Assembly: GCA_038503065.1 (NCBI GenBank) | Contig: JBCAMK010000005.1 | Coordinates: forward strand, 1,054,001 to 1,118,000 | DNA from: Paragyromitra xinjiangensis | Taxonomy: Eukaryota; Ascomycota; Pezizomycetes; Pezizales; Discinaceae | DNA length: 64,000 nt | Direction of reading: 5' to 3' | Part shown: positions 36,268-62,511 of the stretch, one piece after another | How positions within the stretch are numbered: the first letter of the stretch is position 1 | How the letters are laid out: each line of letters opens with the position of its first letter | Program-made: the position numbers and the translations under genes | The notes under the pieces: generated by a model | Databases searched by the model: none | Told to the model about the DNA's origin: nothing | Seen by the model: the letters and a program-made list of their open reading frames with translations, nothing else

Positions 36268-36268
36268 T

Positions 36269-37702: not shown

Positions 37703-37899
37703 TGGGATTGCTTTACGTTGGATGGGAGGAGAAAGGTGAGAGGAGGTTCGTTTGCGGCCAGCAACCTTTGGTGGAGTTGTTTGAACGCGGACAAAGTGCA
37801 CTGGGGTTGCGATGGGTGAGGGGGATCTCCTGGGGGGAGTTTGGGGATCCAGAGTGATGACTCCGATGCAGGAGGAGGTAAATTTCCTGAAGCGGGGTA

Positions 37900-43440: not shown

Positions 43441-43718
43441 AATTTCCAATTTCCAATTTCATTTAATTTAGACAATCGCTAACCTAACTAGCTACCGAAT
43501 GGTACGCGTATAAGAATACATGACCTCATCCACCGCCAGCCTCTTCTTCCCCGTAAAATAAAAACAACATACATAATAAAGAAAACTCAAAACAAAACAT
43601 AACAAACTAACACAAACACACTCGAACAACTTTTAAATCAATATAAAATAAATGAAATATTCCAATAACCGGAAACAAAAGAAAAACTTCCCCCGCCCGG
43701 ATTACCAGTTTTTATTCT

Positions 43719-45000
43719 TTAATCAAGCAAGTTGCAATTGGAAATTGCATCCAAATATGAATTTGAAGAGAGTTGAACCAAATTATTCATGCGAATAAAG
43801 TGAAGTCGATCAGTTGCGTTGGTGTTGTCCAATATTGCTGTATGCCAGTTACTTCCCCATTGTGGGCATGAAGAAAGGTTTAGCGGACAGTGTAAGGCTA
43901 GGTGAGTTGATGATGATGTTTCTCCACATGCACATGTTGTTGGAGGAGTCAGTGGGTTCGGGTCAGCTTTGGTTTGATTCGTTCGTAATAGAGAGATGGC
44001 TCGTGCTTGTGATCGTCGGAGGAATCTGATGACGTGAGGAGGATGTAGAGAAACTGGAGTGGGAGCATTCCGCTGCCATTCTCTTAGGAGTTGTAATTTG
44101 GGTTGTAGACACAGCCAGCCCAATGTCGTGCAGGTGTGTTTGCATGGATGTTTTGTTAGCCCTTCCTTGGCCAGGCGATCTGCTATCTCGTTGCCTGCTA
44201 TGCCCATGTGAGATGGGGTCCAGCGTGCGGTGATTGAACAGTTTAGATTGTGAAGGGTTTTGATGTGCGATAAGGTGTCATTCAAAAATTGTCTGTTGGA
44301 TGTGGGTCCTCCAGTTAGGGCTCTGATTGCATTTTGATTATTAATGCAAAGGTAAATGTCGGCATTGTCTATTGGTAAGTTTTGGATGAGATATGAAGTG
44401 GCCTCCTGTATACCATGGAGTTCGGCATCTTCGTTTTCACATTGATGTCCGAGGTTGCAGTTGCCTGAGTGTGACTGTAGGGTTGTTCCGGCGAAGATAT
44501 GTTGTATGTTCCAGCCTGCTGCGGTGGTGCCTGTTTCGGATTTAGATCCGTCTGAGTAGACTACCCAGGCATTGGAGACGGAGTTTATCCAATCTTTGTG
44601 GGATAGGGTCACCGATTGTTTGGTGCCCACTATGTGGATGTTGTTGTGAAGAAGGTATGGGTGTGCGGGGAGGGAAAGGGCTTCAAGTGGAGGTCCTTGG
44701 AGAAGTTTGGAGAGAACGTTGCCAACTCTTTGTAGGCCTGTGCCTACAAATTTATTGTGTTGTATGTGTTGTTGTAAGATATGGTGAAGGGGGTTATTGG
44801 GATTGCGTAGGATGCGTATTGCGTAGAGTTGTGTGCGCATATCCAGTAATAAATTGAGAGGGGGCAGTCCTGCCTCTGGTAGGAGTTTGTTGATGGGGGT
44901 GAATTTGGGGAGGCCGGTTATGAGTCGGGCAACCCTATGGTATGGGGGATTAAGTCGATTTAGAATATCTGAAGTGCCAGTCCACCATACCTCTGAGCCA
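43719..45000 (-). pseudogene. LINE A1 ORF2, C-terminal half (connector and RNase H)
   Basis: Open frame from the TIR-element boundary: EVWWTGTSDILNRL, ITGLPKFTPINKLLPEAGLP, VVYSDGSKSETGTTAAG, ENEDAELHGIQEAT, CINNQNAIRAL, WTPSHMGIAGNEIADRLAKE, CACGETSSSTHLALHCP. The RNase H active-site Asp in IDNQNA is Asn here (INNQNA), which would impair it. Confidence 0.87.
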
Positions 45001-47397
45001 CATCAGCAAAACTGATTCTCGGCTCCCGGGCGCTCCCGGACCCTCATGGATGGCGCGGACCAGATGGAGGCAAGTGCCAGTCCATGGAACAGCCATATCC
45101 CAAGGACCCTTGCACACGGTTCCCGGACCACACACCACTTCTCACGGACCCTCGTGGACCTCCCTGGACCACCTACCATAGATGGTGGACCTTCCTGGAG
45201 CTCTATCAATTCCTGTGGACCACACTGTCGCTTGTAGGTCGCTTATAGGGCGGCTGTAGGGCGCCAATAATACTACTACTAGGGGTACTAGTACACGAAT
45301 GTACATGATTATTGGTATCAATTCGGCTATGTATATTGAAAAGCTACACTATAGGATCTCTATGTACAAAATCAAGCAGTCGCCACTAGAGGCAACCCCC
45401 CCCCCGCACTAAACCCACCTGTGCCTAAATCAATTGTTTGGTCTGCTATTCAGCAGTTGTTTTAGGCGCTGGCACGCAGTCGATTCGGAGTCTATTCAGC
45501 AGTCAATTGAGCAGTCAATTCGGCAGGATTCGGAGGCTTAGTAACGGCCGATTCAGAGTCAATTCGGCAGTCAATTCGGCAGGATTCGGAGGCTTAGAAA
45601 CAGCTGATTCGGAGTCTATTCGGGAGCCTATTCAGCAGTCAATTCAGCAGTCAATTCGGCAGGATTCAGAGCCTATTCCGCAGTCAATTCGGAGTCTATT
45701 CGGGCATCGATTCGGAGTCTATTCAGGAGTCAATTCAGCAGTCAATTCAGCAGGATTCGGAGGCTTAGAAACAGCCGATTCAGCCGTCAATTCGGAGCCT
45801 ATTCAGGAGCCTATTCGGAACCTATTCGGGAGTTGATTCGGAGTCTATTGAGCAGTCAATTCAGCAGTCAATTCAGCGGGATTCGGAGGCTTAGAAACAG
45901 CCGATTCGGAGTCTATTCGGCAGTCAATTCAGCAGTGGATTCGGAGGCTCAGAAACAGCCGATTCGGAGTCAATTCGGGAGTCGATTCGGAGTCTATTCA
46001 GGAGTCTATTCAGGAGTCTATTCAGGAGTCAATTCAGCAGTCAATTCAGCAGGATTCGGAGTCTATTCGGGAGCCTATTCAGCAGTCAATTCGGAGCCTA
46101 TTCAGGAGCCTATTCGGGAGTTGATTCGGAGTCTATTCAGCAGTCAATTCAGCAGGATTCGGAGGCTCAGAAACAGCCGATTCGGAGTCGATTCGGCCCG
46201 GGAATCTATTTAGGAGCCTATTCAGCAGTCAATTCAGCAGTCAATTCGGAGTCTATTCGGGAGCCTATTCAGCAGTCAATTCGGAGCCTATTCAGGAGCC
46301 TATTCGGGAGTTGATTCGGAGTCTATTGAGCAGTCAATTCAGCAGTCAATTCAGCGGGATTCGGAGGCTTAGAAACAGCCGATTCGGAGTCTATTCAGCA
46401 GTCAATTCAGCAGTCAATTCAGCAGGATTCGGAGGCTCAGAAACAGCCGATTCGGAGTCGATTCGGAATCTATTTAGGACCCTATTCAGCAGTCAATTCA
46501 GCAGTCAATTCGGAGCCTATTCGGGAGTCGATTCGGAGTCTATTGAGCAGCCAATTCGGAGTCTATTCAGGAGTCAATTCAGGAGTCAATTCGGAGGCTT
46601 AGAAACAGCCGATTCGGAGGCTGCTCGGGAGGCTCTCACACAGTCGATTCAGCAGGCTGTGGAAGCGAGCGAGGTCTGCTGCTGAAGGGGTCTGCGGCTG
46701 AAGGGGTCCGACCAAGCGAGGTCCGATGTAATAGGGTCCTATGTCTGCTGTCAACGATGTCTGAATGTATGTGGGAACTGAAGTCACGATGTTAGCAAAG
46801 TTCATGTAACTGCAAAGTAGGGAGGGAAGGGCAAAAGGGGGTGTGGGTGGGTGTGAATGGGTGGGAGTTGGAGAATAGGGGTAAGGTGGCAACGGTAGGG
46901 TACGGGTGGCAGCGAAAGGCATTCACCAAAAATTCGCTAAGTCCCTAAGGTCAGTGTTATTGATTGTCGCTTGCAAGCGAGGTCCAAGTCCTGCGATCTC
47001 CTGTCAGCGGGGTGCGCAATTCGGGGGTCTAATAGAGGGCAGGTACGTGCCTCAGGGCGCTGGTGGAGTGGGGGTACACACTTCAGTGGTATCCAGAGAG
47101 CACCATGGACCTAGAAAAGCGAACCCTGTTTGGCACCGGAGATGGGTACGAAACTCCAGAGAGGACCACGGACCGTGAAGCTGAGCTCCAGGAGCTCCAG
47201 GAAGGTCCATGGCCATGCAAGCGAGGTCCATGGGGTGTGCTGGAGCACAGTCCTTCATTCCTGCAGGTACCAGGGTGCGCCACAACACGGGTGGTTGTTC
47301 CAGTTGCGCTCAGGACCCTCCCACACCAACGCTCAGACATCCTGGAAGATGCGGGACCTGGAAGTGCAAGCCTGGATCAGAATCAGTTTTGCTGATG
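45001..47397. mobile_element. Non-autonomous TIR element with minisatellite core (2.4 kb)
   Basis: Terminal inverted repeats CATCAGCAAAACTGATTCT (45001-45019) and its exact complement (47379-47397). Flanking CA at 44999-45000 and 47398-47399 is a 2-bp target duplication; removing the element and one CA restores LINE ORF2 (GAGCCA/AACAGGGC), matching the other copies. Subterminal regions share further inverted words, for example GGACCTTCCTGGAGCTC near 45188 and its complement near 47190. The middle (45470-46690) is a tandem repeat. No transposase seen. Superfamily uncertain: the TIR and CA duplication do not match a common fungal group I know. Confidence 0.88.
45470..46690. repeat. Degenerate minisatellite with 12-bp units
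   Basis: Units such as GGAGTCTATTCG, CAGTCAATTCAG and GGAGCCTATTCA alternate. About every 100-150 bp a longer word AGGATTCGGAGGCTTAGAAA then CAGCCGATTCGG recurs. Because 12 is a multiple of three, long repeat ORFs appear (45438-45836, 45833-46213, 46311-46685), with peptides of SLFSSQFSSQFG type; these are more simply by-products than genes. Confidence 0.85.
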
Positions 47398-49840
47398 CAA
47401 ACAGGGCTGCTGGGAGGATGATGGTGAGGGCTAATTGATGTAGGAGGTGTGGTGTTGGGCCCTTGCTCTTGACGAGGTTGTTGACTAGATATAACGATGT
47501 TCGTAGTCTGGAGGCTGCTTTCTGGCAGTGTGTGTGAAAGTTTAATCTTTGGTCCAGTGTGATGCCTAGGACCTTGATTTGAGGAGATGGATCGATGATT
47601 TTGTCGAAAAGATGTATGCTTTGTTTTATTACCAGGCTGCTGCTGGAGGGAATTAGGTGGAGCAGCTCGGTTTTGGGCTCGGAAAAGGATATGTTGAGGA
47701 AGTTTGCCCTTTGGGTTTTGGCTTTGTACCTTTCGGTTAGCCTCTTCGTGGCATATAGCGGGGTTTTTGCGAGTTGGAGTGCAGTGTCGTCATCAATGTA
47801 TATGGTAGACAATTCGTTGGTGGGGGCATTTGGGCAGTCCAATGCAGCTGCATAGATGACGAATGTGATTGATGAAAGTGGTGATCCTTGGGGAAGGCCG
47901 ATTTTAAGCGGGAGAGGTGGTTCCAGGTTGCCATTTATTCTGAAGGCAAGGGTGCGATTGGAAGTGAAGCTGGACATCCATTTGATGCACCAGTTTGGAA
48001 ATCGATAATGTTGAAGGATTTGGATTAGATGGGGATGAGAAACGCAATTGAAGGCTCCATCTATATCTGTTGCTAGGATGGTGGGTCGGGGGGGTAGGCG
48101 CTGGGTTTTTCGATCATTGTTGGTGATTGGTATGAGGAGTTGTTTTTGTGCGGGGGTGAGTATCAGATGGAGTGAATTGATGGCAGATACGCCTGTTCTG
48201 GCTCCTGTGTGGTGTTGTCGGATAGCCCCGTTGAGGGTGGCATACCGTTCCAGACTTTTTGCTACTATTTTTTCAAGAAGCTTCCCTAGGCAGGATAATA
48301 GGGATACCGGGCGATAGCTCTTGGGATCCGAGTAGTCTGCCTTGTTCGATTTAGGGATGGGGACGCAGTGTGTGATTTTCCATCTGTCGGGCATGTGGCC
48401 TGACTGTAGGAGATTATTGAATAGGGCGACAAGGAGTGCTGGTCGGGCTCTGTGTACCTCCCTAAGGGTGAGGTAGTTGAATCCGTCCGCTCCCACTGCT
48501 GTACGCATGTTGGAATGTTGGAGTAGATTTTCTATTTCCTGAGATGTGATGATGTGCGTGTGTTCGCTGGTGTCTATGAGGGGGGGAGGTAGGAAGTCAT
48601 TCGGGAGGGGTGGAGGTTCATTTTGGGGAGGGAAGAAGGTTTGGCGGAAGGATGCTCCGATATCTTCGTTGGTTGTGTTGCCTTGTATGGCTGGGATTGT
48701 GGATTTGTTGCGAGCGGAGGATTTGTTTAATAGGTTCCATGCCGCGCTTGGGTTCATGCCCTTGAGAGTGAGGTGCCAGTGATTCCATTTTGCTTGGATG
48801 ATTTCGGCTCTCCAGATGCGTCTCGTTTCATTGGCTTGGTGTCGGATGATGGGTGGGGAATTTGGTTTTCGTCGTTGTTTTTCTAGCCAGGCTAGTTTGC
48901 GCTTGAGAGTGGAAAGGTGAGGTGTCCACCAGCCTTTGGCTTGTATCTTGGGTTTGGATAAGGGGACTGCATTTTGGATGGCTTTGTTGATTAAGCTCTC
49001 GATATGATCGAGAGTAGTTTCAGTTGCCTGTATGTTGCTATAATCGGAGGGGATGATTCCATCTTGTATGGTCTTGTGGAAAGTAGGCCAATTGGTTTTG
49101 GAATAGAGGAATCGGGATGAATAAGAGGGGGGGTGTAGGTATAGGACGGTTTTCAATGTGATATGGTCAGAATTGTGGCCGTCTGTGGTGGGTGCCGACC
49201 ATGGACCTAATATGTCTGTGAGGCCTCTGATGAAGGTTAAGTCAATGATGGAGGGGGAGTTTCCATTTCGCGGGAAGTGTGTGAATGTGCCTGGTTTGTT
49301 GAGGAGTCTGAAATTATTTTCCTCTAGCCATTCTGTTACTGTTTCTGTGAGGTGTAGATGCCTGGAAAAATATCGATGGGAGGTTTCAGCTTCTTCTCCA
49401 TACCACCATGGGTGGTGTAGATTGAAGTCTCCAGCTAAAATGGAATTTGTGTGAAAGGAGTGTGATAGTAATGGAAGATGATGATTATCGTTGGTGCGAG
49501 GTTGGAGATATAAGTTGCAAACTTCCAATTTGGTGTGTGCAGTTTGAAGGGTGACCGCAATCATGTTTGGATTCGGTTTGAGTGTGACGATCGTTTTTAT
49601 GTTGAGGTTCTTTCGAATATAAATAACAACTTTAGGAAAAACACAGGGAAAGTATATGTCGAAGTTACTTGCTGCTGGAGGTAGGCCATTATGGTCTACC
49701 CAAGGTTCCTGTAGCATTTGGATAAGAATATTATTTGATGAATCAATGTCCCGAATTACTGAAAGAGTAGAGGCCTGTCCTTTGGCGCAGTTCAGTTGCT
49801 GCACAATGGCTATGCCTGATGAGATTGGGTGTGGCTGCAT
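47398..49840 (-). pseudogene. LINE A1 ORF2, N-terminal two thirds (endonuclease and RT)
   Basis: Start codon overlaps the ORF1 stop (TAATG). Endonuclease: VQQLNCAKGQAST, MLQEPWVDHNGLPPA, LAGDFNLHHPWWYG, NSPSIIDLTF, NSDHITLKT. RT: KADYSDPKSYRPVSLLSCLG, LATDIDGAFNCVSH, KIGLPQGSPLSSITFVIYAA, STIYIDDDTALQLA. The frame runs into the TIR element after LTIILPAALF. All catalytic residues are present up to that point. Confidence 0.9.
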
Positions 49841-51252
49841 TAAGCAGTGTTGGTGTTGATTCGGGAAGATTTAAGGCTCTCAGTGAGCTTGGTGTAGGCA
49901 ATGCAGACCCTGCGTTCATAGGCTTTGTGTCCTTGGTTGCAGTTGGCGCAGCGGATTGGGGGGTGAGTGCATTTAGTGCCTGCTGGGCATCCGGAGGTGG
50001 TGCAGGGGTGCTTGAATGTTTCGTGGGCTTCCGCACATACTGCGCATTTGAAGTCCTTCTTGCATGTTTGTTGGTGGTGACCATATTCTTGGCATCTTCT
50101 GCATTGTGTGGTGGGGGAAACGGCAATGTATTCCTGTACTCGACAGAAGGAGTTGAAGAGGGGGATTTGTGAGAGGCCGAGTGTTTCCATGGTGAATTTC
50201 TGTGGTAGGGCGATGATGATTGCTGAATGGGTTTTGTTGGCTCTAGCTTCTGGAGTTGTGAGCCAGCGGGGGGTTTGGGCAAGGGTGAAAGTTGGCACGG
50301 AAATGGTCATTTGTTCTGTGACTTCTGCCATTGTTGCTTTGGTAGGAATGCCGTGGATGATGAATTTAGACCACTTGGAGTTTGGTCTGGCTTCGCCGAG
50401 GGGGACCTTGAGCAGGGCGCATGCCGTTTCAATTTCCTTCTGGTAAGCTTGACAAATTTGTTCGGCGGATTCATCAGGGCGGGTGGTTAAAACGAAGTTG
50501 TGACTGGCGGTTTTGGTGCACATGAGGATGGAAGTGTTGCGTGGAGCGAGTTCCTTGTTTATTGCGGTTAGGAGGGAAGAAGTTTCAACTGATGGTGGGA
50601 TGTCGGCGGAGGTTTCCAAGATGATTTGGCGGTTGATAGTGGTGAATTGGGGTTGGAAGAGCTTGGGAGGGAGGGCCTTCTTCTTTTTGCCCTTGTTGAC
50701 TTTGGTGAAGGGGGCTGCGGGTGCATTTGCAGCTTGTGCATATGTCATGGGCTTTCCGTCGTTGAGGAGGGGGGTTTGGGGTTTTTGTGTGGGTGGTTTT
50801 TGCTGCTGGTTGCTGGCTGGTGCCGGAGTGCGAGTGGGTTGGCTGGTGTTCTTGTCGATGGTTTGAAGGGACCTAGCCATGTTGTTGAGGGTGGTGGAAA
50901 GTTTTCCAACCATTTCCTGGAGGATCTTAGTTTGATCCGTGAGTCTAAGGATGTCGTTCTCCTGCATGGCGACTTTTGCAAGGAGGTGGGTGTTGTTTTC
51001 CTCCACTTGGGAGTGAAGACGGGCGAAGCTGGATTTAGAGAGCCAGGCAAGGTACTGTTCAGTAGAATCTTCTGTGTCTACGTCAGGCATGTAGTCCTCA
51101 TGCTTGTTGAAGTCTCTGAGCCAGTTAGGAGTGGAGTCATCGGGGAGTTCCTGCATTAGAGCTTCATCGATGTACTGGGAATCGGTAGAGGGTCCAGCAG
51201 GAGCTGCTGAGGCGAAGAGAGATTGTCCGGTGGAGGGTCCAGGGGTCACCAT
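49840..51252 (-). CDS. LINE A1 ORF1: gag-like zinc-knuckle protein (470 aa from first ATG)
   Basis: The frame is open to the element's 5' end (51573) but has no ATG before 51252 (MVTPGPSTG). Core: FQPQFTTINRQIILETSADI, LAPRNTSILMCTKTASHNFV, NSKWSKFIIHGIPTKATMAE, LAQTPRWLTTPEARANKTHS. Zinc knuckles: CRRCQEYGHHQQTC, CAVCAEAHETFKHPC, CANCNQGHKAYERRVC. Predicted coiled coil around EENNTHLLAKVAMQENDILR. The stop shares its last A with the ORF2 ATG. This copy is intact. Confidence 0.9.
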   Translation of the reverse strand: MVTPGPSTGQSLFASAAPAGPSTDSQYIDEALMQELPDDSTPNWLRDFNKHEDYMPDVDTEDSTEQYLAWLSKSSFARLHSQVEENNTHLLAKVAMQENDILRLTDQTKILQEMVGKLSTTLNNMARSLQTIDKNTSQPTRTPAPASNQQQKPPTQKPQTPLLNDGKPMTYAQAANAPAAPFTKVNKGKKKKALPPKLFQPQFTTINRQIILETSADIPPSVETSSLLTAINKELAPRNTSILMCTKTASHNFVLTTRPDESAEQICQAYQKEIETACALLKVPLGEARPNSKWSKFIIHGIPTKATMAEVTEQMTISVPTFTLAQTPRWLTTPEARANKTHSAIIIALPQKFTMETLGLSQIPLFNSFCRVQEYIAVSPTTQCRRCQEYGHHQQTCKKDFKCAVCAEAHETFKHPCTTSGCPAGTKCTHPPIRCANCNQGHKAYERRVCIAYTKLTESLKSSRINTNTA

Positions 51253-51573
51253 TTTAGTTGGTGAACCTGAGCGGGTGGGGGCTGGTGAAGGGTTGGAGAG
51301 GGTTCGCTTCTTGCCAATGAGGGGGAGGGTGAAGTTGGTGCCAAAGGTCACCAGCTTCACGGGAGATGGGGAGGGTGTGCGGGATCTCCTGGGAGGAGTT
51401 TGGGGCGGATCCAGGATGAGTTGGGGCAATGCGCCCGATGAAAGGTTGCGAGAGTGGGGAAGTGGTGAGAAATGAAGCCGAAGATTTAGAGACTTTTTGC
51501 AGTGTGTAACGCCGTTGCAACGTAGCTTTTGGAGTTTTGCAGGGATCTTTTTCGCGTGCAGGATGAGGCCCAA

Positions 51574-53663
51574 TTTCAATTTTCAATTTCAATTTCAATT
51601 TATTTTAGACAGTCGCTAACCTAACTTGCTACTGAATGGCACGCGTATAAAAATACATGGCCTCATCCACCGCCAACCTCACAACCCCTACACTCCCAAG
51701 TTACAGTCTCTATGGTGCGAGACCAACCGCACGTTCTGTTACAGGACAGGCCACTAGGAAGCACAAAAGAAAACGTACAAGAACACCACAAGGGGAAATT
51801 CAAGCTTAGCGAGTAAGAGAATAAGACAACAGGTAGGCTAAAAAGAAAACTTGATCAAGGTAAACGAAACTTGCCAAATGAAAATATGAAAACAATGCAA
51901 CAAGAAATCAGTAAGTATGGTTTCTTACCAACCGCACATCCTTTTTACAGGCAGGAAATCGTTGTTGTTGGTATGAGGGGTGGGCAAAGTAAGCAGATCA
52001 GGCGTTTGCCGGATGAGGGGTGCGTTTTGCCAGATTGAGTTTGGCAAAGTGAGTGCAGGAGGAACGCTCAAAGGCGCGGTGTCCCTGTTTACAGTTGACA
52101 CATCTGATGGGGTGATGGGTGCACTTGGCTCCTTTTTGGCATCCTTTGGTACTGCATGGGTGTTGGGCCGTTGGGTGGGGCTCAGCGCAGATGGCACAGG
52201 CAATAGTGTTGTGGCAAGTCTGCTGGTGATGACCATATTGCTGACATTTCCGACATTGTGTGGTGGGAGAAATTGAAAAGTATTCCTGGACGCGGCAGGA
52301 TTTGTTGAACATGGGGATATAGGTTAATCCAAGGGTTGCCATGGTATATTTTTTGGGAAGGGCGATAACAATGGCTGAGGCTGCTTTCCCAGCTCTCTGG
52401 GCTTCAGTTGTGAGCCAGCGTGGGATTTGGGCAAGAGTGAGGGAAGGTGCGGCAGTGGCAATGGCCTCCTGTGCCTCTTTCATGGTGGTGGTGGTGGGAA
52501 CGCCGTGGATGATGAACTTGGACCATCTGGAGTTGGGTCGCACATCGGAGATGGGTAGGTGGAGGAGGTTGCAGGCTTCTTCAATCTCTCTCTGATAAAG
52601 AGAGCAGACTTGTTCGCCAGATTCTGTGGGTCGGGTGAGGAGAACAAAATTGTATCTTTCTGTTCTGGTGCACATAAGGATGGATGAATTGCGAAGGGAG
52701 AGAGCGATGTTGATGGCCTTCAAAAGGGCATCACTAGTGATTTCGTGGGAGGAGGTTGAGGTTTCCACAATGATCTCGCGATTGATCTTTGTGTACTCGG
52801 GGTTGTAGAGGGGGGTGACCTTAGGCTTCTTGGTCTTGTTCGTGGTAGTGATGGCGGGAGCGGCGGCGGCTTGCGCATATGTGGTGGCTTTTGGACCAGG
52901 AGCCTGTGGGGAGACAGGAGCTGGGTGTGGGACGAGAGGGGTGCTGGGTTTGGTAGAGATGTCTCTAACCAGGGAGGAGAGGGCATTGTTGGCTCTGGAG
53001 AGCTCGTTGATGCAGGAGGTGAGGGTGAGAATGTCGGATGCTTGGTGCTCCAGTCTGTTGATGAGTGCTTGCTGGTTGAGTTGCATTTGCTCCGTTAAGG
53101 CTGCAAAGCTGTTCTGGATGGTCCAGAGCATATATTGCTGGACGTCTTTGCCATCCTCTTCTGCTGGGACTTCGGGGGCGTAGTCTTGTTCAGGGGAGAA
53201 AGGGAGGTGGGAAGGGGGGGCGCTGGTTTGCTGGGGTGGGAGGGCTGAGGAAGAAGATTCCCCCATGTCGAGATCTTCTGCGAAGGCAGACAATGCAGTG
53301 GAGCCAAAGAGAGCCATCTCTTTTGAGGGAGATGGGGTTCTGGCTGGTTGGGGTGAGGGGTCGGAAAGCTGGCGCTTCCTGGGGATGGGGCCTTTCTTGC
53401 GGCCGTTCCCTTTGGTGAAGATGGGTGGCAGGCGCACGTCCACCAACTTGACAGGTGATGGGGAGGGTGAAGCTGAACGTCTAGGAGGTGTTTGTGGAGG
53501 ATCCAGTGTGATTTCCACGGGTTGCGACCGTGAAAACTGAGAGCGGGGTAAAGGTGGTGAGAAATGAAGCCGAAGAGTTAAAGACTTTTTGCTGTGTGTA
53601 ACGCCGTTGCAACGTAGCTTTTGGAGTTTTGCAGGGATCTTTTTCGCGTGCAGGATGAGGCCC
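51574..53663 (-). mobile_element. LINE B1, ORF1-only non-autonomous LINE
   Basis: 2.09 kb. The 5' 105 bp are almost identical to LINE A. Then come a B-specific ORF1 and about 400 bp of 3' region, whose last 85 bp (GGCGGTGGATGAGGCCATGT ... TAGGTTAGCGACTGTCTAAA) again match LINE A; the tail is ATTGAA repeats. There is no ORF2 and no space for it. It lies between A2 (upstream on the minus strand) and A1 (downstream), joined without any spacer. Confidence 0.92.
51998..53317 (-). CDS. LINE B1 ORF1: gag-like zinc-knuckle protein (439 aa from first ATG)
   Basis: The first ATG at 53317 begins MALFGSTALSAFAEDLDMGE; the frame upstream is open to the 5' end of the element without ATG. Core: YNPEYTKINREIIVETSTSS, NSRWSKFIIHGVPTTTTMKE, LAQIPRWLTTEAQRAGKAAS. 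Knuckles: CRKCQQYGHHQQTC, CAICAEPHPTAQHPC, CVNCKQGHRAFERSSC. Compared with B2 the 555-codon open frame differs at only about ten positions, with no stop, so the ORF seems maintained or very young. It ends with a normal TGA and is followed by no RT sequence. Confidence 0.9.
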   Translation of the reverse strand: MALFGSTALSAFAEDLDMGESSSSALPPQQTSAPPSHLPFSPEQDYAPEVPAEEDGKDVQQYMLWTIQNSFAALTEQMQLNQQALINRLEHQASDILTLTSCINELSRANNALSSLVRDISTKPSTPLVPHPAPVSPQAPGPKATTYAQAAAAPAITTTNKTKKPKVTPLYNPEYTKINREIIVETSTSSHEITSDALLKAINIALSLRNSSILMCTRTERYNFVLLTRPTESGEQVCSLYQREIEEACNLLHLPISDVRPNSRWSKFIIHGVPTTTTMKEAQEAIATAAPSLTLAQIPRWLTTEAQRAGKAASAIVIALPKKYTMATLGLTYIPMFNKSCRVQEYFSISPTTQCRKCQQYGHHQQTCHNTIACAICAEPHPTAQHPCSTKGCQKGAKCTHHPIRCVNCKQGHRAFERSSCTHFAKLNLAKRTPHPANA

Positions 53664-53935
53664 AATTTCCAATTTCCAATTTCATTTAATTTTAGACGGT
53701 CGCTAACCTAACTAGCTACCCGAATGGTACGCGTATAAGAATACATGACCTCATCCACCGCCACTCTCTTTTTCCCCGTAATAAGGAACCAACAAGATAA
53801 AGAAAACCAATAACAAAATAACATAACGAACTAAACAACACGCAACAAATCATAACTATAACATATATAAATGAAATATCCAATAACCGGAAACAAAAGA
53901 AAAGCTTCCCCCGCCCGGTTTACCAGTTTTCATTC

Positions 53936-56900
53936 TTAATCAAGCAAGTTGCAATTGGAAATTGCGTCCAAATGTGAATTCGAGGATAGTTGGACCAGAT
54001 TATTCATTCGGATGAAATGGAGTAGGTCGGTTGCGTTGGTATTGTTTAATATTGCAGTGTGCCAGTCATTTCCCCATTGAGGTCGTGAGGTGGTGTTTAG
54101 TGGGCAATGTAGGGCTAAGTGAACTGATGATGATATTTCACCACATGCACATGTCGATGGAGGGGTTAGTGGATTTGGATCCGCTTTGGTTTGATTTGTG
54201 CGTAGCAGGGAAATGGCTTGTGCTTGGGATCGTCGGAGGAGTCTGATGACCGTAGGAGGTTTTAAGGAAACTGAAATGGATGTTTCTTGTTGCCATTGTG
54301 TTAAGAGCTGTATTTTGGGTTGTAGGCAGAGCCAACCCAAGGTTGTGCACGTATGTTTGCATGGGCGTTTTGTTAGGCCCTCTTTGGCCATGCGATCTGC
54401 TACCTCGTTGCCTTCAATGCCCATGTGAGATGGGGTCCAGCGTGCAGTTACCGAGCAATTAAGATTGTGTAGGGTGTGGATGTGTGCTAGGGCATCATTT
54501 AGGAATTGTCTGTTGGATGTGGGTCCTCCAGTCAAAGCTTTGATCGCGTTTTGATTATCGATGCACAGGTAAATGTCAGCGTTGTCTATTGGTAAATTTT
54601 TGATGAGGTGTGAAGTGGCTTCCTGAATTCCGTGCAGTTCAGCGTCTTCGTTTTCGCAGTGGTGTCCCAGGTTGCAATTGCCTGTGTATGATTGGAGGGT
54701 GATTCCGGCAAAAATGTGGCGGATATTCCAGCCTGCTGCGGTAATACCAGTTTCGGATTTGGAGCCATCTGAGTAGACTACCCAGGCGTCGTTGAGGGAA
54801 TTTATCCAGTCTGTGTGTGAAAGTGTTGCTGATTGTTTGGTGCCAACTATGTGGACGTTGTTCTGTGGGAGGAATGGATGTGTGGGTAAGGATAAAGCTT
54901 CAAGAGGGGGGCCGCGGAGGAGTTTGGAAAGGACGCTGCCCACTCTTTGTAGTCCTGTGCCTATGAAGCTATTATGGTGTATATGCTGTTGTAGGATGTG
55001 ATGGATGGGGTTGTTGGGGTTGCGTAATATGCGTATCGCATATAATTGTGTGCGCATGTCCAATAATAAATTGAGGGGGGGTAGGCCTGCTTCTGGTAGG
55101 AGTTTGTTGATGGGGGTGAATTTGGGGAGGCCGGTTATGAGTCGGGCTACTCTATGGTAGGTGGGGGCGAGGCGATTGAGGATGTCTGAGGTGCCAGTCC
55201 ACCACACCTCAGAGCCGAAAAGGGCTGCTGGGAGGATGATGGTGAGGGCTAGTTGATGTAGGAGGTGTGGTGTTGGGCCCTTGCTCTTGACCAGATTGTT
55301 GACTAGAAAGATTGATGTTCGAAGTCTGGAGGCTGCTTTTTGGCAGTGTGTATGAAAATTTAATCGTTGATCCAAGATAATTCCTTGAACCTTAATTTGT
55401 GGGGATGGATTGATAATTTTATTGAAAAGATGTATGCCTTGCTTGATCGTGAGGCTGCTGCTGGAAGGGATGAGATGGAGCAATTCAGTTTTGGGTTCGG
55501 AGAAGGTTATGTTGAGGAAGGCGGCTCTTTGTGCCTTGATCTCATGTCTTTCCGTGAGTCTCTTGGTAGCGAAGAGTGGAGTTTTTGCTAGCTGGAGGGC
55601 TGTATCATCATCAATGTAAATGGTGGAAGATTCGTTTGGGGAGGTATAGGAGCAATCAAGGGCCGCTGCATAAATGACGAAAGCTATTGATGACAGTGGT
55701 GATCCTTGTGGGAGGCCAATTTTGAGCGGAAGTGGTGTTTCCAGGTTCCCATTTATCCTGAAGGCGAGTGTGCGATTGGTTGTGAAGCTGGTCATCCATT
55801 TGATGCACCAGTTTGGGAATTGGAAGTGTTGTAGAATTTGCATTAGGTGGGGGTGTGAGACGCAGTTAAATGCACCATCTATGTCTGTGGCGAGGAGAGT
55901 GGGTCGGAGTGGTAAGCGCTGTGTTTTTCTATCGTTGTTGGTGATTGGTATGAGGAGCTGCTTTTGCGCTGGGGTGAGTATTAGGTGTAGCGAGTCTATT
56001 GCAGATACACCCCTTCTGGCACCTGTATGATGAGGGCGGATAGCTCCGTTAAGGGTGGCATATTGTTCCAGTCTTTTTGCTATTATTTTTTCCAGGAGTT
56101 TGCCTAGGCATGATAATAGGGACACTGGGCGATAGCTCTTGGGGTCCGAATAGTCCGCTTTGTTTGATTTCCGGATGGGGACACAATGTGTGATTTTCCA
56201 TCTGTCAGGCATGTGTCCTAGTTGGAGGAGGTTGTTGAAGAGGGTGGATAGGAGGGCTGGGCGGGCTCTGTGTGTTTCTCTGAGTGTGAGGTAGTTGAAG
56301 CCGTCTGCGCCCACTGCTGTGCGCATGTTCGAATGTTGCAGCAGGTTTTCTATTTCGTGAGGGGTGATGATGTGTGTGAGGTGGCTGGTATCCATGAGAG
56401 GGGGGGGAAGAAAACTATTTGGAAGGGGGGGAGGTTCATTTTGGGGCGGGAAGAAAGTTTGGTGAAAGGATGTGCCTATTTCTTCGTTGGTTGAGTTGCC
56501 TTGTATGGATGGGATTGTGGATTTATTTCGGGCGGAGGATTTGTTCAGAAGGTTCCATGCTGCGCCTGGGTTTAAGCCTTTGAGGGTGAGGTGCCAGTGA
56601 TTCCATTTAGCTATGGTGATTTCAGCTTTCCATGTTTGTCTCACTTGGTTGGCTTGTTGTCGGATGTTGGGAGGAGAATTGGGTTTGCGTCGTTGTTTCT
56701 CTAGCCAGGCTAGTTTTCGTTTGAGGGTAGATAACTGAGGTGTCCACCAGCTTTTGGCTCCGATTTTTGGTTTAGAAAGGGGAACCGTGTTCTGGATGGC
56801 CCTGTTGATTAGATTTTCGATGTGATTAAGGGTGCTCTCCGTTGTTTGTATATTTCTGTAATCAAGGGGAATTGCTCCTTCCTGAATGATTTTGTGGAAG

Positions 56901-57658
56901 GCGGGCCAGTTGGTTTTCGAGTATAGGTGTCGGGGGGTGTAGGAAGGGGGGTGGAGGTATAGGGTTGTTTTTGTTGTGATGTGATCTGAGTTGTGTTCAT
57001 CTGAGGGGGGGGCTGACCAAGGTCCTAATGTGTCGGTGAGGCCCCTCGCGAATGTGAGATCAATTGTGGAGGGGGAGCTTCCGTTTCTTGGGAAGTGAGT
57101 AAAGATGCCCGGTTTGTTGAGGAGTCTGAAGTTGTTGTTTTCCAGCCATTCCGTCATTATTTCGGTGAGGTGTAGGTGTCTGGAAAAATATCGGTGAGAT
57201 GTTTCGGCTTCTGCTCCATACCACCATGGGTGGTGTAGGTTGTAGTCACCTGCTAGTATGGCGTTGGTGTGGAAGGGGTGTGATAATAGTGGTAAGTGGT
57301 GATTATCGTTGGCTCGAGATTGGAGGTATAAGTTGCACACTTCTAATTTGATGTGTGCAGTTTGGAGTGTGACCGCAATCATGTGTGGATTGGGTTTTAG
57401 TGTGACGATTGTTTTGATATTTAGGTTCTTTCGTATATAAGTGACAACTTTAGGAAAAACGCAAGGAAAGTATGCGTCGAAATTATTTGCTGCTGGTGGT
57501 AGTCCATTGTGATCTAGCCAGGGTTCTTGTAGCATTTCAATAAGGATGTTGTTTGATGAATCTATGTCGCGGATTACTGAAAGGGTGGAGGCCTGTCCTT
57601 TGGCGCAGTTCAGTTGCTGCACCATGGCTATGCCTGGTGATATCGGGTGTGGCTGCAT
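53936..57658 (-). CDS. LINE A2 ORF2: endonuclease-reverse transcriptase-RNase H (1,240 aa), intact
   Basis: Complete frame. Endonuclease (about 1-235): VQQLNCAKGQAST, MLQEPWLDHNGLPPA, LAGDYNLHHPWWYG, SPSTIDLTF, NSDHITTKT. RT (about 450-760): SYRPVSLLSCLGKLLEKIIA, LATDIDGAFNCVSH, KIGLPQGSPLSSIAFVIYAA, STIYIDDDTALQLA. RNase H (about 955-1090): VVYSDGSKSETGITAAG, ENEDAELHGIQEAT, CIDNQNAIKAL, WTPSHMGIEGNEVADRMAKE. C-terminal zinc-binding motif CACGEISSSVHLALHCP. Tad/I-group architecture. As the only complete A-family ORF2 in the window it is the candidate source of RT acting in trans on the B elements. Starts within TAATG. Confidence 0.94.
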   Translation of the reverse strand: MQPHPISPGIAMVQQLNCAKGQASTLSVIRDIDSSNNILIEMLQEPWLDHNGLPPAANNFDAYFPCVFPKVVTYIRKNLNIKTIVTLKPNPHMIAVTLQTAHIKLEVCNLYLQSRANDNHHLPLLSHPFHTNAILAGDYNLHHPWWYGAEAETSHRYFSRHLHLTEIMTEWLENNNFRLLNKPGIFTHFPRNGSSPSTIDLTFARGLTDTLGPWSAPPSDEHNSDHITTKTTLYLHPPSYTPRHLYSKTNWPAFHKIIQEGAIPLDYRNIQTTESTLNHIENLINRAIQNTVPLSKPKIGAKSWWTPQLSTLKRKLAWLEKQRRKPNSPPNIRQQANQVRQTWKAEITIAKWNHWHLTLKGLNPGAAWNLLNKSSARNKSTIPSIQGNSTNEEIGTSFHQTFFPPQNEPPPLPNSFLPPPLMDTSHLTHIITPHEIENLLQHSNMRTAVGADGFNYLTLRETHRARPALLSTLFNNLLQLGHMPDRWKITHCVPIRKSNKADYSDPKSYRPVSLLSCLGKLLEKIIAKRLEQYATLNGAIRPHHTGARRGVSAIDSLHLILTPAQKQLLIPITNNDRKTQRLPLRPTLLATDIDGAFNCVSHPHLMQILQHFQFPNWCIKWMTSFTTNRTLAFRINGNLETPLPLKIGLPQGSPLSSIAFVIYAAALDCSYTSPNESSTIYIDDDTALQLAKTPLFATKRLTERHEIKAQRAAFLNITFSEPKTELLHLIPSSSSLTIKQGIHLFNKIINPSPQIKVQGIILDQRLNFHTHCQKAASRLRTSIFLVNNLVKSKGPTPHLLHQLALTIILPAALFGSEVWWTGTSDILNRLAPTYHRVARLITGLPKFTPINKLLPEAGLPPLNLLLDMRTQLYAIRILRNPNNPIHHILQQHIHHNSFIGTGLQRVGSVLSKLLRGPPLEALSLPTHPFLPQNNVHIVGTKQSATLSHTDWINSLNDAWVVYSDGSKSETGITAAGWNIRHIFAGITLQSYTGNCNLGHHCENEDAELHGIQEATSHLIKNLPIDNADIYLCIDNQNAIKALTGGPTSNRQFLNDALAHIHTLHNLNCSVTARWTPSHMGIEGNEVADRMAKEGLTKRPCKHTCTTLGWLCLQPKIQLLTQWQQETSISVSLKPPTVIRLLRRSQAQAISLLRTNQTKADPNPLTPPSTCACGEISSSVHLALHCPLNTTSRPQWGNDWHTAILNNTNATDLLHFIRMNNLVQLSSNSHLDAISNCNLLD

Positions 57659-60106
57659 TAAGCAGAGTTGGTGTTGATTCGGGAGGATTTGAGGCTCTCA
57701 GTGAGCTTGGTGTAAGCGATGCAAACTTTTCGTTCGTAGGCTTTATGCCCTTGGTTGCAGTTGGCGCAGCGGATTGGGGGGTGTGTGCACTTAGTGCCTG
57801 CAGGGCATCCAGCGGTGGTACAAGGGTGTTTGGAAGTTTCGTGGGTTTCCGCGCATACTGCATATTTGAAATCCTTTTTGCATGTTTGTTGGTGATGGCC
57901 GTATTCTTGGCATCTTCTGCATTGCGTGGTTGGGGAGACTGCGATGTATTCTTGTACACGGCAGAAGGAGTTGAAAAGGGGGATTTGGGAGAGGCCGAGT
58001 GTCTCCATGGTGAATTTTTGCGGCAGGGCGATGACAATTGCTGAGTGGGTTTTGTTGGCTCTTGCCTCTGGGGTGGTGAGCCATCTGGGGGTTTGGGCGA
58101 GGGTGAAGGTGGGAACTGAGATGGACATTTGTTCTGCAACTTCTGCCATCGTTACTTTGGTGGGGATGCCATGGACAATGAATTTGGACCATTTGGAATT
58201 TGGTCTGGCTTCACCAAGGGGAATTTTGAGTAGGGTGCATGCCGTTTCTATTTCCTTTTGGTATGCTTGACAGATTTGTTCGGCGGATTCGTCGGGGCGA
58301 GTGGTCAGAACGAAGTTATGTCTGGCAGTTTTGGTGCACATGAGGATGGAGGTATTGCGGGGGGCAAGTTCCTTATTAATAGCGGCCAGGAGGGAGGAGT
58401 TGTCAATGGAAGTAGGGACGTCAGCGGAGGTTTCTAAAATGATTTGGCGGTTTATGGTGGTAAACTGCGGTTGAAAAAGCTTGGGAGGAAGGGGCTTCTT
58501 CTTCTTGTTGCCTTTGTTGACCTTGGTGAAGGGAGCACCAGGGGCATTCGCAGCTTGTGCGTAGGTCATTGGTTTCCCGTCATTTAGGAGGGGAGTGTAA
58601 GACCGGTACTTCGCACCACTACTGAATTCTAAGCGAAGCTTTAGATAGCTCTCTAGACTCTGTAACTCGACCGGCTACTATCCGTAGCACAATACCCGAG
58701 CGCACGTCCTGACAACTTCTTATGAACCGCACAAAGGCAACGATAGTTTAAGCGAGATAAGGGTCGGGGCTGTTCCGTTGAAAGAACTTTCTCAATAGGA
58801 AGGACACGAGTGTTGAAGCGCGAAGCTATGCTAAACAACTCGATACGATGGAGAATTTATCACGGAACAAAGTATGTTGGTAACAAAATAATATTGATAA
58901 GGCTCGTTCTTCCTCGATGATGATCGACTCAGAATTGACGTCCAATGCAAGAGTATTTATATCCCGTCCTCTTTACTACTGTGTGTTCTTTGTAGCTTGG
59001 GTCGACGGACTAAACTATCTACTATTACAAATTGAACTAACTCGCTTATCCATTTATCCGACATCCTATCGGCGAAGCCGATATCTCCAACTTCCGACAC
59101 TTACCCCTCATTCAGTAATCTTCGGATCGCCGTGGCGATGATACGGTTGCGACGGTTGCGTTCGCCCGATCGAGTAGGTGGTTACACGATATCGTTTTGT
59201 TGCGACAGCTGGTGTTTGGAGCCCTGTAGCGCGGGCAGGAGACCTCTGATGACTAATCCGAATAGCCCACGTGACTCGGCGCCCCAAGTTGCCCTATGAA
59301 GACCTCTCATACATACCCTCCGGGTCACGTTCCGCGGGAAGGGCGCCGTTGACGACCAAAGGGTTACTTTTAGTCTCCGGGACGCGGATATTTTGCGGGT
59401 GTCCCCCCTTCTCGATCTACTCGCTGCTGAAGGCAGGGTAACGGCCGGGTAACCGGGGAAGGCAGGGTAACTGCCTGGGAATAGGCTGGGAAGGCCAATA
59501 TCGCAACAGGGAGCCACAGAGGGGTCCAACGAAGACGGGAAGGTGACCAAATGGAAGGTAGGGTAACTCCCTACGTAGGTAGGGTAACAGGGAGACCACT
59601 GCACGCCTATAGCCATAGGTATAACAGGGAGTTTGCGGTTTTTGTGCAGGCGGTTTTTGCTGCTGGTTGCTGGCTGGTGCCGGGGTGCGAGAGGGTTGGC
59701 TGGTGTTTTTGTCGATGGTTTGAAGGGATCTGGCCATGTTGTTAAGGGTGGTTGAAAGTTTTCCAACCATTTCTTGAAGGATCTTGGTCTGATCCGTGAG
59801 CCTGAGAATGTCATTCTCCTGCATGGCGATTTTGGCGAGGAGATGGGTGTTGTTTTCCTCGGTCTGTGAGTTGAGGCGAGCAAAGCTGGACTTCAAAAGC
59901 CAGGCTACAAATTGCTCTGTGTTTCCCTCATTGGGGATTTCGGGCATGTAATCTTCAGTTGGTGTGAAGTCACGGAGCCAGTTGGGAGTGGAATCGTCGG
60001 GGAGCTCCTGCATTACAGCTTCGTCAATGTATTGGGAATCGGTGGAAGGACCAGCATGAGCTGAGTCGAAGAGGGATCGACCGGTGGAGGGTTCAGGGCC
60101 TGCCAT
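57658..60106 (-). pseudogene. LINE A2 ORF1, interrupted by solo LTR
   Basis: N-terminal part 59627-60106 (first ATG 60106, MAGPEPSTGRSLF) and C-terminal part 57658-58595 (LLNDGKPMTYAQAANAPGAP to the zinc knuckles). The break falls in QTP/LLNDGKP, and removing the solo LTR with one GGGAG copy restores the frame seen in A1. Knuckles: CRRCQEYGHHQQTC, then YAVCAETHETSKHPC, where the first Cys of the second knuckle is Tyr, and CANCNQGHKAYERKVC. Confidence 0.9.
58596..59626. mobile_element. Solo LTR, family S, copy 2
   Basis: 1,031 bp, TGTAAGACCGG ... GGTATAACA, with 5-bp duplications GGGAG (58591-58595 and 59627-59631). Same family as 31190-32190. It differs by two short insertions near its right end (ATCGCAACAG and a duplicated GTAGGGTAAC-type segment) and by scattered single-base changes, most of them CG in this copy versus TG or CA in copy 1. 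Confidence 0.95.
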
Positions 60107-60428
60107 TTGTTTGGATGGAGATCCTGAGCGGGCGGGGGCTGGTGAAGGGTTTGAAAGGGTTCGCTTTTTGCCAATGAGGGGGAGGGTGAAGTTGGTGCCA
60201 AAGGTCACCAGCTTCACGGGGGATGGGGAGGGTGTGCGGGATCTCCTGGGAGGAGTTTGGGGCGGATCCAGGATGAGTTGGGGCAATGCGCCCAATGAAG
60301 AGTTGCGAGAGCGGGGAAGTGGTGAGAAATGAAGCCGAAGATTTAGAGACTTTTTGCAGTGTGTAACGCCGTTGCAACGTAGCTTTTGGAGTTTTGCAGG
60401 GATCTTTTTCGCGTGCAGGATGAGGCCC

Positions 60429-62511
60429 AATTTCAATTTCCAATTTCAATTTATTTTAGACAGTCGCTAACCTAACTAGCTACTGAATGGCACGCGTATA
60501 AGAATACATGGCCTCATCCACCGCCAACCTCGCGACCCCTACACTCCCAAGTTACAGTCTCTATGGTGCGAGACCAACCGCACGTTCCGTTGCAGGACAG
60601 GCCACTAGGAAGCACAAAAGAAAACGTACAAGAACACCACAAGGGGAAATTCAAGCTTAGCGAGTAAGAAAATAAGACAACAGGTAGGCTAAAAAGAAAA
60701 CTTGATCAAGGTAAACGAAACTTGCCAAATAAAAATATAAAACAATGCAACAAGAAATCAGTAAGTATGGTCTCTTACCAACCGCACATCCTTTGCAGGC
60801 AGGAAATCATTGTTGTTGGTATGAAAGGTGGGCAAAGTAAGCAGATCAGGCGTTTGCCGGATGAGGGGTGCGTTTTGCCAGATTGAGTTTGGCAAAGTGA
60901 GTGCAGGAGGAACGCTCAAAGGCGCGGTGTCCCTGTTTACAGTTGACACATCTGATGGGGTGATGGGTGCACTTGGCTCCTTTTTGGCATCCTTTGGTAC
61001 TGCATGGGTGTTGGGCCGTTGGGTGGGGCTCAACGCAGATGGCACAGGCAATGGTGTTGTGGCAAGTCTGCTGGTGATGACCATATTGCTGACATTTCCG
61101 ACATTGTGTGGTGGGAGAAATTGAAAAATATTCCTGGACGCGGCAGGATTTGTTGAACATGGGGATATAGGTTAATCCAAGGGTTGCCATGGTATATTTT
61201 TTGGGAAGGGCGATAACAATGGCTGAGGCTGCTTTCCCAGCTCTCTGGGCTTCAGTTGTGAGCCAGCGTGGGATTTGGGCAAGAGTGAGGGAAGGTGCGG
61301 CAGTGGCAATGGCCTCCTGTGCCTCTTTCATGGTGGTGGTGGTGGGAACGCCGTGGATGATGAACTTGGACCATCTGGAGTTGGGTCGCACATCGGAGAT
61401 GGGTAGGTGGAGGAGGTTGCAGGCTTCTTCAATCTCTCTCTGATAAAGAGAGCAGACTTGTTCGCCAGATTCTGTGGGTCGGGTGAGGAGAACAAAATTG
61501 TATCTTTCTGTTCTGGTGCACATGAGGATGGATGAATTACGAGGGGAGAGAGTGATGTTGATGGCCTTCAATAGGGCATCACTAGTGATTTCGTGGGCGG
61601 AGGTTGAGGTTTCCACAATGATCTCGCGATTGATCTTTGTGTACTCGGGGTTGTAGAGGGGGGTGACCTTAGGCTTCTTGGTCTTATTCGTGGTAGTGAT
61701 GGCGGGAGCGGCGGCGGCTTGCGCATATGTGGTGGCTTTTGGGCCAGGAGCCTGTGGGGAAACAGGGGCTGGGTGTGGGACGAGAGGGGTGCTGGGTTTG
61801 GTAGAGATGTCTCTAACCAGGGAGGAGAGGGCATTGTTGGCTCTAGAGAGCTCGTTGATGCGGGAGGTGAGGGTGAGAATGTCGGATGCCTGATGCTCCA
61901 GTCTGTTGATGAGTGCTTGCTGGTTGAGTTGCATTTGCTCCGTTAAGGCTGCAAAGCTGTTCTGGATGGTCCAGAGCATGTATTGCTGGACGTCTTTGCC
62001 ATCCTCTTCTGCTGGTACTTCGGGGGCGTAGTCTTGTTCAGGGGAAAAAGGGAGGTGGGAGGGGGGGGCGCTGGTTTGCTGGGGTGGGAGGGCTGAGGAA
62101 GAAGATTCCCCCATGTCGAGATCTTCTGCGAAGGCAGACAATGCAGTGGAGCCAAAGAGAGCCATCTCTTTTGAGGGAGATGGGGTTCTGGCTGGTTGGG
62201 GCGAGGGGTTGGAGAGCTGACGCTTCCTGGGAACTTCTTTCTTCTTGCGGCCGTTCCCTTTGGTGAAGATGGGTGGCAGGCGCACGTCCACCAACTTGAC
62301 AGGTGATGGGGAGGGTGAAGCTGAGCGTCTAGGAGGTGTTTGTGGAGGATCCAGTGTGATTTCCACGGGTTGCGACCGTGAAAACTGAAAGCGGGGTAAA
62401 GGTGGTGAGAAATGAAGCCGAAGAGTTAAAGACTTTTTGCTGTGTGTAACGCCGTTGCAACGTAGCTTTTGGAGTTTTGCAGGGATCTTTTTCGCGTGCA
62501 GGATGAGGCCC
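60429..62511 (-). mobile_element. LINE B2, ORF1-only non-autonomous LINE
   Basis: 2.08 kb, close to B1 over its whole length. The 5' end at 62511 abuts gypsy2 (CGCCCTTGGG/CCTCATCCTG on the minus strand) and the tail at 60429 abuts A2. It is the 5'-most member of the array. Confidence 0.92.
60846..62165 (-). CDS. LINE B2 ORF1: gag-like zinc-knuckle protein (439 aa from first ATG)
   Basis: Same organisation as B1 ORF1: MALFGSTALSAFAEDLDMGE start, coiled-coil segment (LEHQASDILTLTSRINELSR), core NSRWSKFIIHGVPTTTTMKE, knuckles CRKCQQYGHHQQTC, CAICVEPHPTAQHPC, CVNCKQGHRAFERSSC. Intact. Differences from B1 include KKEV for KGPI and R for C in TSRINELS. Confidence 0.9.
   Translation of the reverse strand: MALFGSTALSAFAEDLDMGESSSSALPPQQTSAPPSHLPFSPEQDYAPEVPAEEDGKDVQQYMLWTIQNSFAALTEQMQLNQQALINRLEHQASDILTLTSRINELSRANNALSSLVRDISTKPSTPLVPHPAPVSPQAPGPKATTYAQAAAAPAITTTNKTKKPKVTPLYNPEYTKINREIIVETSTSAHEITSDALLKAINITLSPRNSSILMCTRTERYNFVLLTRPTESGEQVCSLYQREIEEACNLLHLPISDVRPNSRWSKFIIHGVPTTTTMKEAQEAIATAAPSLTLAQIPRWLTTEAQRAGKAASAIVIALPKKYTMATLGLTYIPMFNKSCRVQEYFSISPTTQCRKCQQYGHHQQTCHNTIACAICVEPHPTAQHPCSTKGCQKGAKCTHHPIRCVNCKQGHRAFERSSCTHFAKLNLAKRTPHPANA

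Follow-up and report, generated by a model that had tools for sequence, protein, structure and literature searches.

Head-to-tail LINE arrays at a chromovirus integrase position in the fungus Paragyromitra xinjiangensis

Some long interspersed nuclear elements (LINEs) are directed to particular sequences, and Tx1L of Xenopus targets the DNA transposon Tx1D. Transposons are one class of target, and Tx1 and R1 are clades with an endonuclease of the apurinic/apyrimidinic (APE) type that have target-specific members (PMC4640811). In Magnaporthe, the telomeric retrotransposons MoTeR1 and MoTeR2 form mixed or homogeneous head-to-tail arrays (PMC7367193), and the FoTeRs are telomeric (PMC12857005). 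Here we describe a LINE family of the fungus Paragyromitra xinjiangensis, starting from a window of 64,000 nucleotides (C5:1054001-1118000 in a 48.2-Mb, 22-contig assembly) in which four LINE units lie within the integrase gene of a Ty3/gypsy chromovirus, gypsy2 copy 1.

The reading that we favor, with a probability of about 0.86, is that this is a target-site-specific LINE family homing to one fixed position in the chromovirus integrase, between the W and A/T codons of RPW(A/T)SISMD. Junction counts refer to the first 100 listed of 113 matches to the 5' end and the first 100 listed of 117 matches to the tail. Among these matches, all 100 5' ends and 98 of the 99 genuine tails are at the integrase site or at another unit; the sole exceptional end abuts another LINE beside the integrase position. 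In the listed copies the autonomous (A) units divide into three classes that each go with a single target subtype, and the units that contain only open reading frame 1 (ORF1), designated B, share the ends of the A units and occur with all three classes.

The array and the integrase target

The four units are arranged head to tail on the minus strand in the order B2-A2-B1-A1 with zero spacer, as a sequence-only reading of this DNA had proposed, and they split the integrase between the W and A codons of RPWASISMD (read directly from the translation). The 9-mer TTGGGCCTC occurs five times in the window, always on the minus strand (5' bases 62513, 60430, 53665, 51573, and 43442), and all five copies are junctions, two with the gypsy element and three between units. 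Four copies of GGGCCTCATCCTGCACGCG are present, again only on the minus strand; their 5' bases are 62511, 60428, 53663, and 51571. The outer flanks of the array, CGCCCTTGGG/CCTCATCC and AAATTGGG/CCTCGATTTC, are also as that reading described them. With one mismatch allowed, TTGGGCCTC is not enriched over shuffled sequence (14 observed versus 17.65 expected), so its significance rests on exact placement and not on count. The target protein has the domains rve, SH3_Tf2-1, and Chromo, and their presence downstream of the array identifies the target element as a chromovirus. The features of the locus are as follows.

62514-64000, minus strand: gypsy2 copy 1 (the target chromovirus) upstream of the array, with pol as far as ...YRPW, from the sequence and from the same flank in other copies
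62505-62513, minus strand: 5' outer junction TTGGGCCTC, in which half of the target meets the 5'-terminal pentamer
60431-62504, minus strand: LINE unit B2, ORF1-only, open frame 60846-62570; B1 and B2 are 97.5% identical
60422-60430, minus strand: internal junction TTGGGCCTC, joining the B2 tail to the 5' end of A2
53666-60421, minus strand: A2, a LINE unit of the autonomous type, with ORF1 interrupted by an insert like a long terminal repeat (LTR) and ORF2 at 53936-57697
58596-59626, minus strand: solo-LTR-like insert of 1031 bp in A2 ORF1, with CTCCC at both flanks
53657-53665, minus strand: internal junction TTGGGCCTC, joining the A2 tail to the 5' end of B1
51574-53656, minus strand: LINE unit B1, ORF1-only, open frame 51998-53707
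51565-51573, minus strand: internal junction TTGGGCCTC, joining the B1 tail to the 5' end of A1
43443-51564, minus strand: A1, a LINE unit of the autonomous type, with ORF1 in the open frame 49840-51582
47333-49870 and 43719-45002, minus strand: open frames holding the two pieces of A1 ORF2
45001-47397, minus strand: DNA-transposon-like insert of 2397 bp in A1 ORF2, with inverted ends CATCAGCAAAACTGATTCT
43434-43442, minus strand: 3' outer junction TTGGGCCTC, leading into integrase codons
42338-43433, minus strand: downstream integrase part with rve core, SH3_Tf2-1, and chromodomain (scanned frame 42338-43462)
39597-41447, minus strand: A3, the 3' part of a further A unit, with an LTR-like end at 41448
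38492-39596, minus strand: gypsy2 copy 2 integrase, into which the A3 tail leads via TTGGGCTTC at the same codons

Exact 5' ends were found 35 times in the genome (control, 0), and the 30 that were fetched had a LINE tail upstream in 19 cases and the integrase target in 11. A looser 5'-end pattern gave 113 matches versus 2 for the reversed control. Inspection of the bases upstream of every listed 5' end, a check proposed with the sequence-only reading, placed 27 of the 100 behind the integrase target and 73 behind a LINE tail, 69 of the latter by coordinates and 4 by fetched sequence. The tail pattern, which allows two mismatches or fewer, leaves the flank untouched, and is free of the flank bias affecting the 5' patterns, gave 117 matches versus 21 in the control. 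One of the 100 listed (C16:368642) was dropped as a chance match; among the 99 genuine tails, 76 run into a 5' end, 22 into the integrase site, and 1 into a different LINE. Coordinates placed 69 tails into a 5' end and 21 into the integrase, and the 10 remaining were fetched: seven lead to a 5' end (in L098, a 5' fragment only), one to the integrase after a small insert in the tail, and one to another LINE beside the integrase target; the tenth is the chance match. Together, the two censuses support the earlier claim that the target site is rebuilt at the junctions. A search for 5' outer junctions listed 29, of which two three-mismatch matches without a LINE end were dropped to leave 27. On the 3' side 30 were listed; two of these were discarded as chance matches, 6 are uninterrupted targets, and the other 22 are tail junctions. 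There are 19 matches to uninterrupted targets (control, 0), of which the one at C16:693584 has another LINE immediately upstream.

Copies truncated at the 5' end are common in LINEs. In this family the 5' ends are about as numerous as the tails, so truncated copies appear to be rare, as judged from overall counts rather than copy by copy; a check for 5' truncation in a 9.3-kb interval of C6 gave one short match within the 1.5 kb fetched.

Unit structure and target-matched classes

The B units are ∼2.08 kb in length and have a single long open frame (ORF1), and the A units, which hold ORF1 and ORF2, are 5729 bp after subtraction of inserts. ORF2 of A2 has the domains Exo_endo_phos_2, RVT_1, and RNase_H, i.e. 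a LINE-type reverse transcriptase (RT) together with an endonuclease of the APE type. By their ORF2 content A1 and A2 are of the autonomous type, as had been suggested, but both carry later inserts (2397 and 1031 bp, respectively). Units A and B are 82–83% alike over the first ∼220 nucleotides and 89–92% alike over the last 100, and at the protein level ORF1 identity between A1 and B1 is 49%. Among the 13 sampled B 5' parts, two that are interrupted by other DNA (L003 and L017) were excluded; ORF1 is open in all 11 copies tested, and their pooled ratio of nonsynonymous to synonymous polymorphism (pN/pS), 0.167, indicates that B ORF1 is kept under purifying selection. No Pfam domain was found in ORF1 at an E-value of 0.001, with weak sub-threshold matches alone at E-values up to 1, and cysteine-histidine knuckles were spotted by eye only. 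The closest named relative of ORF1 is from Morchella sextelata (40% identity over 48%). Among the best 120 of 177 homologues, those named are nearly all fungal and about 24–33% identical. For a BiP-type HSP70, the top match is 96% identical, two Entrophospora entries rank next (83% over 69% of the query), and Tuber, Sphaerosporella, Pyronema, and Rhizina follow with 89–91% along almost its full length, which makes a pezizomycete host probable.

The 27 outer 5' junctions among the matches listed comprise three groups. (i) Thirteen G arrays have GCCTC or GCTTC and lie in gypsy copies with TTGGG (12) or CTGGG (1). (ii) Ten A-class arrays have ACCTC and lie in gypsy copies with CTGGA (9) or TTGGA (1). 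(iii) Four C arrays have ACACC and lie in gypsy copies with CATGGA; uninterrupted CATGG targets carry ACCTC downstream. Relatedness was assessed from pairwise identities among 57 5' parts and 57 3' parts with known inserts masked, and parts without a relative of at least 350 nucleotides were dropped (L004 from the 5' set, L066 and L046 from the 3' set). When each unit is assigned to a class from the pentamer of its array, A units are 88–90% alike within a class versus 81–82% between classes in the 5' part, and 82–85% versus 72–73% in the 3' part. The A units always have their nearest relative within their own class (43 of 43 for the 5' parts, 40 of 40 for the 3' parts); with relatives restricted to those in other arrays, the same holds for 38 of 38 and 27 of 27, and neither figure was reached in any of 20,000 shuffles of the array labels. 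The B units cross classes, the nearest relative being in another class for 4 of 13 5' parts and 4 of 15 3' parts, and the B unit of an ACACC array has a 5' leader like that of the C class.

These results bear on the proposal that the LINE is non-specific, prefers gypsy-rich centromeric heterochromatin, and is purged elsewhere, as in the case of Celine in poplar. The listed copies are indeed clustered, and Celine is largely centromeric with 30 of 58 full-length copies in CRM chromoviruses (PMC11288735), but each Celine copy has a unique target duplication according to the same passages, whereas the outer junctions described here fall at one codon position to the base and the classes of A units match the target subtypes. 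Moreover, a related TAAA-tailed LINE in the window (about 38010-32400) is not at the integrase site. We consider this explanation highly improbable.

The related TAAA-tailed element is a full LINE on the minus strand (about 32400-38010) whose ORF2 is 42% identical to that of A2; it lies away from the integrase site, has ATACACAT on both sides, as seen by eye, and provides a natural non-targeted comparator for the A/B family. Another LINE with a TAAA tail, L117 (C16:693480-695830), is ORF1-only and adjoins an integrase target; it is apparently a separate, second ORF1-only lineage, with stretches of 94% identity in L066 and L090.

Several other elements are associated with the units. The 2397-bp insert in A1 ORF2 (45001-47397) holds an internal satellite-like tract, and spacings of ∼8.04 kb in arrays on C1, C3, C10, C16, and C20 suggest that a similar element is present in many A units; in L004 the same kind of DNA-transposon-like element is located in ORF1. 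A small element within the LINE tail of L101 (C15:1745900-1746260), with ends CATCAGCAAAA/TTGCTGATG, looks like a miniature inverted-repeat transposable element of the same DNA transposon. The segments 31190-32190 and 58596-59626 are two copies of one LTR, ∼97% identical, and both are solo-LTR-like inserts. Judging from the LTR-like end at 41448, gypsy2 copy 1 appears to have inserted into LINE A3, and the nesting thus appears to be reciprocal, with the array-bearing gypsy copy 1 within A3 and A3 within the integrase of gypsy copy 2. Pieces of an RNA-dependent RNA polymerase gene (PF05183) are located near the repeat cluster at 25357-28580 on the plus strand.

Formation and location of the arrays

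At 21 of the 22 outer 3' junctions among the matches listed, the tail ends in AATTGG (the exception, on C10, is GATTGG), and this end is constant whether the gypsy subtype reads CCTTGG, CCCTGG, or CCATGG upstream; the first base past the tail tracks the target subtype (G or A). The internal junction L099 reads AATTAG. A constant tail end followed by a subtype-dependent base points to a bottom-strand nick at TGG^R. From the junctions, we infer that the APE endonuclease of the A unit would nick the bottom strand of the integrase codons at TGG^RC, after which the RNA tail, ...AAAUUGG, would be reverse transcribed from this nick. The 5' end, carrying or joined through RCCTC/ACACC, would then re-create TGG/RCCTCA, so that each insertion would leave a usable site and further copies could stack head to tail, with the B units mobilized in trans by A proteins. 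Every first insertion would probably also disable the integrase of that chromovirus copy, and, if the chromovirus accumulates at centromeres, homing to its integrase would be likely to put the LINE in centromeric chromatin.

Unit spacings are about 5.7 kb (A) and 2.09 kb (B). The array on C20 has up to nine consecutive 5' ends with seven spacings of 5.72–5.73 kb and one of 8.04 kb, all A-sized with one including an insert, and an array on C8 has the order A-B-B-A. The alternation of A and B that was seen in the window (B-A-B-A) is therefore local and not general. Where a same-type array-mate was sampled, 35 of 41 units (5' parts) and 25 of 40 (3' parts) have their nearest sampled relative outside their own array, and the best pairs are 98.9–99.0% identical. 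This favors repeated targeted insertion over tandem duplication.

Several observations weigh against targeted insertion at a self-restoring site, or against parts of it. The 5' patterns contain part of the site (CCTC or TGG), so copies with divergent flanks could be missed, and 13 of the 113 5' ends and 17 of the 117 tail matches are outside the matches listed. Not every target is used, because six target copies far from the LINE intervals are uninterrupted. The pentamer that precedes ATCC could have either of two origins, a 5-bp target duplication or the element itself. In the C22 array the variant GCTTC is present at the outer 5', internal, and outer 3' junctions, a pattern that suggests a target duplication. 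In the C-class arrays ACACC is found at the 5' side and inside, whereas the outer 3' junction has ACCTC, and the 5' end of the C16:695-701k unit reads ACCTC although its 3' flank reads AACCTCC; both suggest an element-borne pentamer. Among the sampled units, the nearest relative is in the same array for 6 of 41 5' parts and 15 of 40 3' parts. Finally, a proxy for growth at the upstream end, where the sequence-only reading had each new copy enter, gave ratios of 28:27 pairs for 5' parts (p = 0.50) and 25:20 for 3' parts (p = 0.31) with inserts masked.

Two of these points can be taken further. Target duplication of 5 bp as the sole origin of the pentamer fits C22 but is contradicted by the C-class arrays and by C16:695-701k, an A unit that apparently entered a duplicated target beside the ORF1-only LINE with a TAAA tail; microhomology joining of the target to a 5' end carried by the element would be compatible with all three cases. 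Growth at the upstream end received no support from nearest-relative identity along the arrays: in the unmasked comparison the ratios were 28:27 for 5' parts (p = 0.51) and 29:15 for 3' parts (p = 0.065), and the 3' signal weakened once inserts were masked. This proxy sampled the 57 5' parts and 57 3' parts only, and many relatives are outside the sample.

Relatives within the same array, together with the regular 5.7-kb spacing in C20 and C3, are what would be expected if one ancestral insertion had been multiplied into arrays by unequal recombination or segmental duplication, all junctions being copies of one junction. However, most nearest relatives are in other arrays, A and B units are interleaved, tail lengths vary, and separate integrase copies on many contigs are struck at the same codon. 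Duplication as the general source is disfavored and we regard it as improbable, but a mixture is possible, with some local amplification alongside repeated insertion. The arrays are known from the assembly alone, in a repeat-rich region, and could in principle be repeats stitched together falsely. This is very unlikely, since sampled same-type array-mates are mostly well below 98% identical and hence distinguishable, two types of junction are seen again and again, ∼100 times across 20 contigs, and nested inserts mark individual units.

Under targeted insertion, the distribution of the arrays also has a bearing on centromeres. The 199 listed ends (99 tails and 100 5' ends) are on 20 of the 22 contigs and define one span per LINE-bearing contig, of 5.7 to 150.1 kb. 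Relative span positions are between 0.20 and 0.81 on 18 of the 19 LINE-bearing contigs measured, with C15 at 0.96, and thus do not show the chromosome-end location of HeT-A-like elements. A search of the assembly for (TTAGGG)4 gave no match, but it may skip simple repeats and hence absence is not established. The 19 uninterrupted-target matches include 11 within 60 kb of the spans, 6 at greater distances on these contigs, and 2 on C11, which has no LINE end among the matches listed. The confinement to one interval per contig is possibly centromere-like, as judged by position only; in Zepp of Coccomyxa, one cluster per chromosome was read as probably centromeric (PMC3446292). A wider proposal is that a two-tier parasite builds the centromeres: chromoviruses would reach centromeric chromatin, and the integrase-homing LINE would disable them and stack into arrays, with three LINE classes and three chromovirus subtypes co-evolving as lock and key via the ∼9–14-bp site and the ORF1-only element exploiting all three. 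We put this forward tentatively, as somewhat more likely wrong than right; if true, the LINE would restrain the chromovirus in a sequence-specific way and would also be a component of the centromere.

Comparison with known systems

Like the present family, Tx1L is an APE-type LINE that specifically targets another mobile element, but it differs in its animal host and DNA-transposon target, as opposed to a fungus and a chromovirus. Tx1L is not known to have classes that correspond to target subtypes or an array partner with ORF1 only.

The MoTeRs are, like the units described here, fungal LINEs with autonomous and non-autonomous elements that have both ends in common, and the autonomous element has a target-like terminal sequence for which the authors suspect site specificity (PMC7367193). 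In contrast, MoTeR1 has a putative restriction-like endonuclease and is associated with telomere repeats, and in MoTeR2 an unrelated sequence replaces the RT (PMC7367193), whereas the present A units have an APE-type domain in place of a restriction-like endonuclease, the outer flanks are integrase codons of a chromovirus and not telomere repeats, and B keeps a conserved ORF1. In Drosophila, the RT-less HeT-A has a conserved gag and forms mixed arrays with an RT-encoding partner, the RT being likely supplied in trans (PMC5537684). The B units are similar in being ORF1-only partners with a conserved ORF in mixed arrays, but HeT-A, TART, and TAHRE are at chromosome ends, have a telomere function, and are described in the cited passages without an integrase target (PMC5537684). 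Zepp of Coccomyxa forms nested LINE clusters, one per chromosome, that are proposed to be centromeric; no gypsy integrase target is named in the passages cited (PMC3446292), whereas here the outer array ends are in a chromovirus integrase. Celine is a centromeric LINE often found within chromoviruses, but with its own target duplication for each copy and no common insertion site (PMC11288735).

The sequence-only reading considered that such an array may be undescribed. Arrays with non-autonomous partners are already known from MoTeR and HeT-A/TART; as to homing to a chromovirus integrase, no LINE targeted to the integrase of a chromovirus or LTR retrotransposon was found in the open-license PMC literature, as judged from the listings of searches partly aimed at the comparators (MoTeR, Zepp, Tx1, and Morchella). 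The favored reading would give a fungal APE-type LINE whose safe harbor is the integrase gene of another retrotransposon, and its self-restoring target would show how single insertions are converted into long arrays. Three natural enzyme classes and three target subtypes would make endonuclease specificity directly testable, and the ORF1-only element would be a case, away from telomeres, of such an element under selection beside RT-encoding partners. The family would also link parasitism of one retrotransposon on another to possible centromere composition. Relative to the known systems, what is new, as far as our sources go, is the fixed integrase-codon target in a chromovirus with three classes matched to its subtypes, together with an ORF1-only unit common to all classes and the confinement to one interval per contig.

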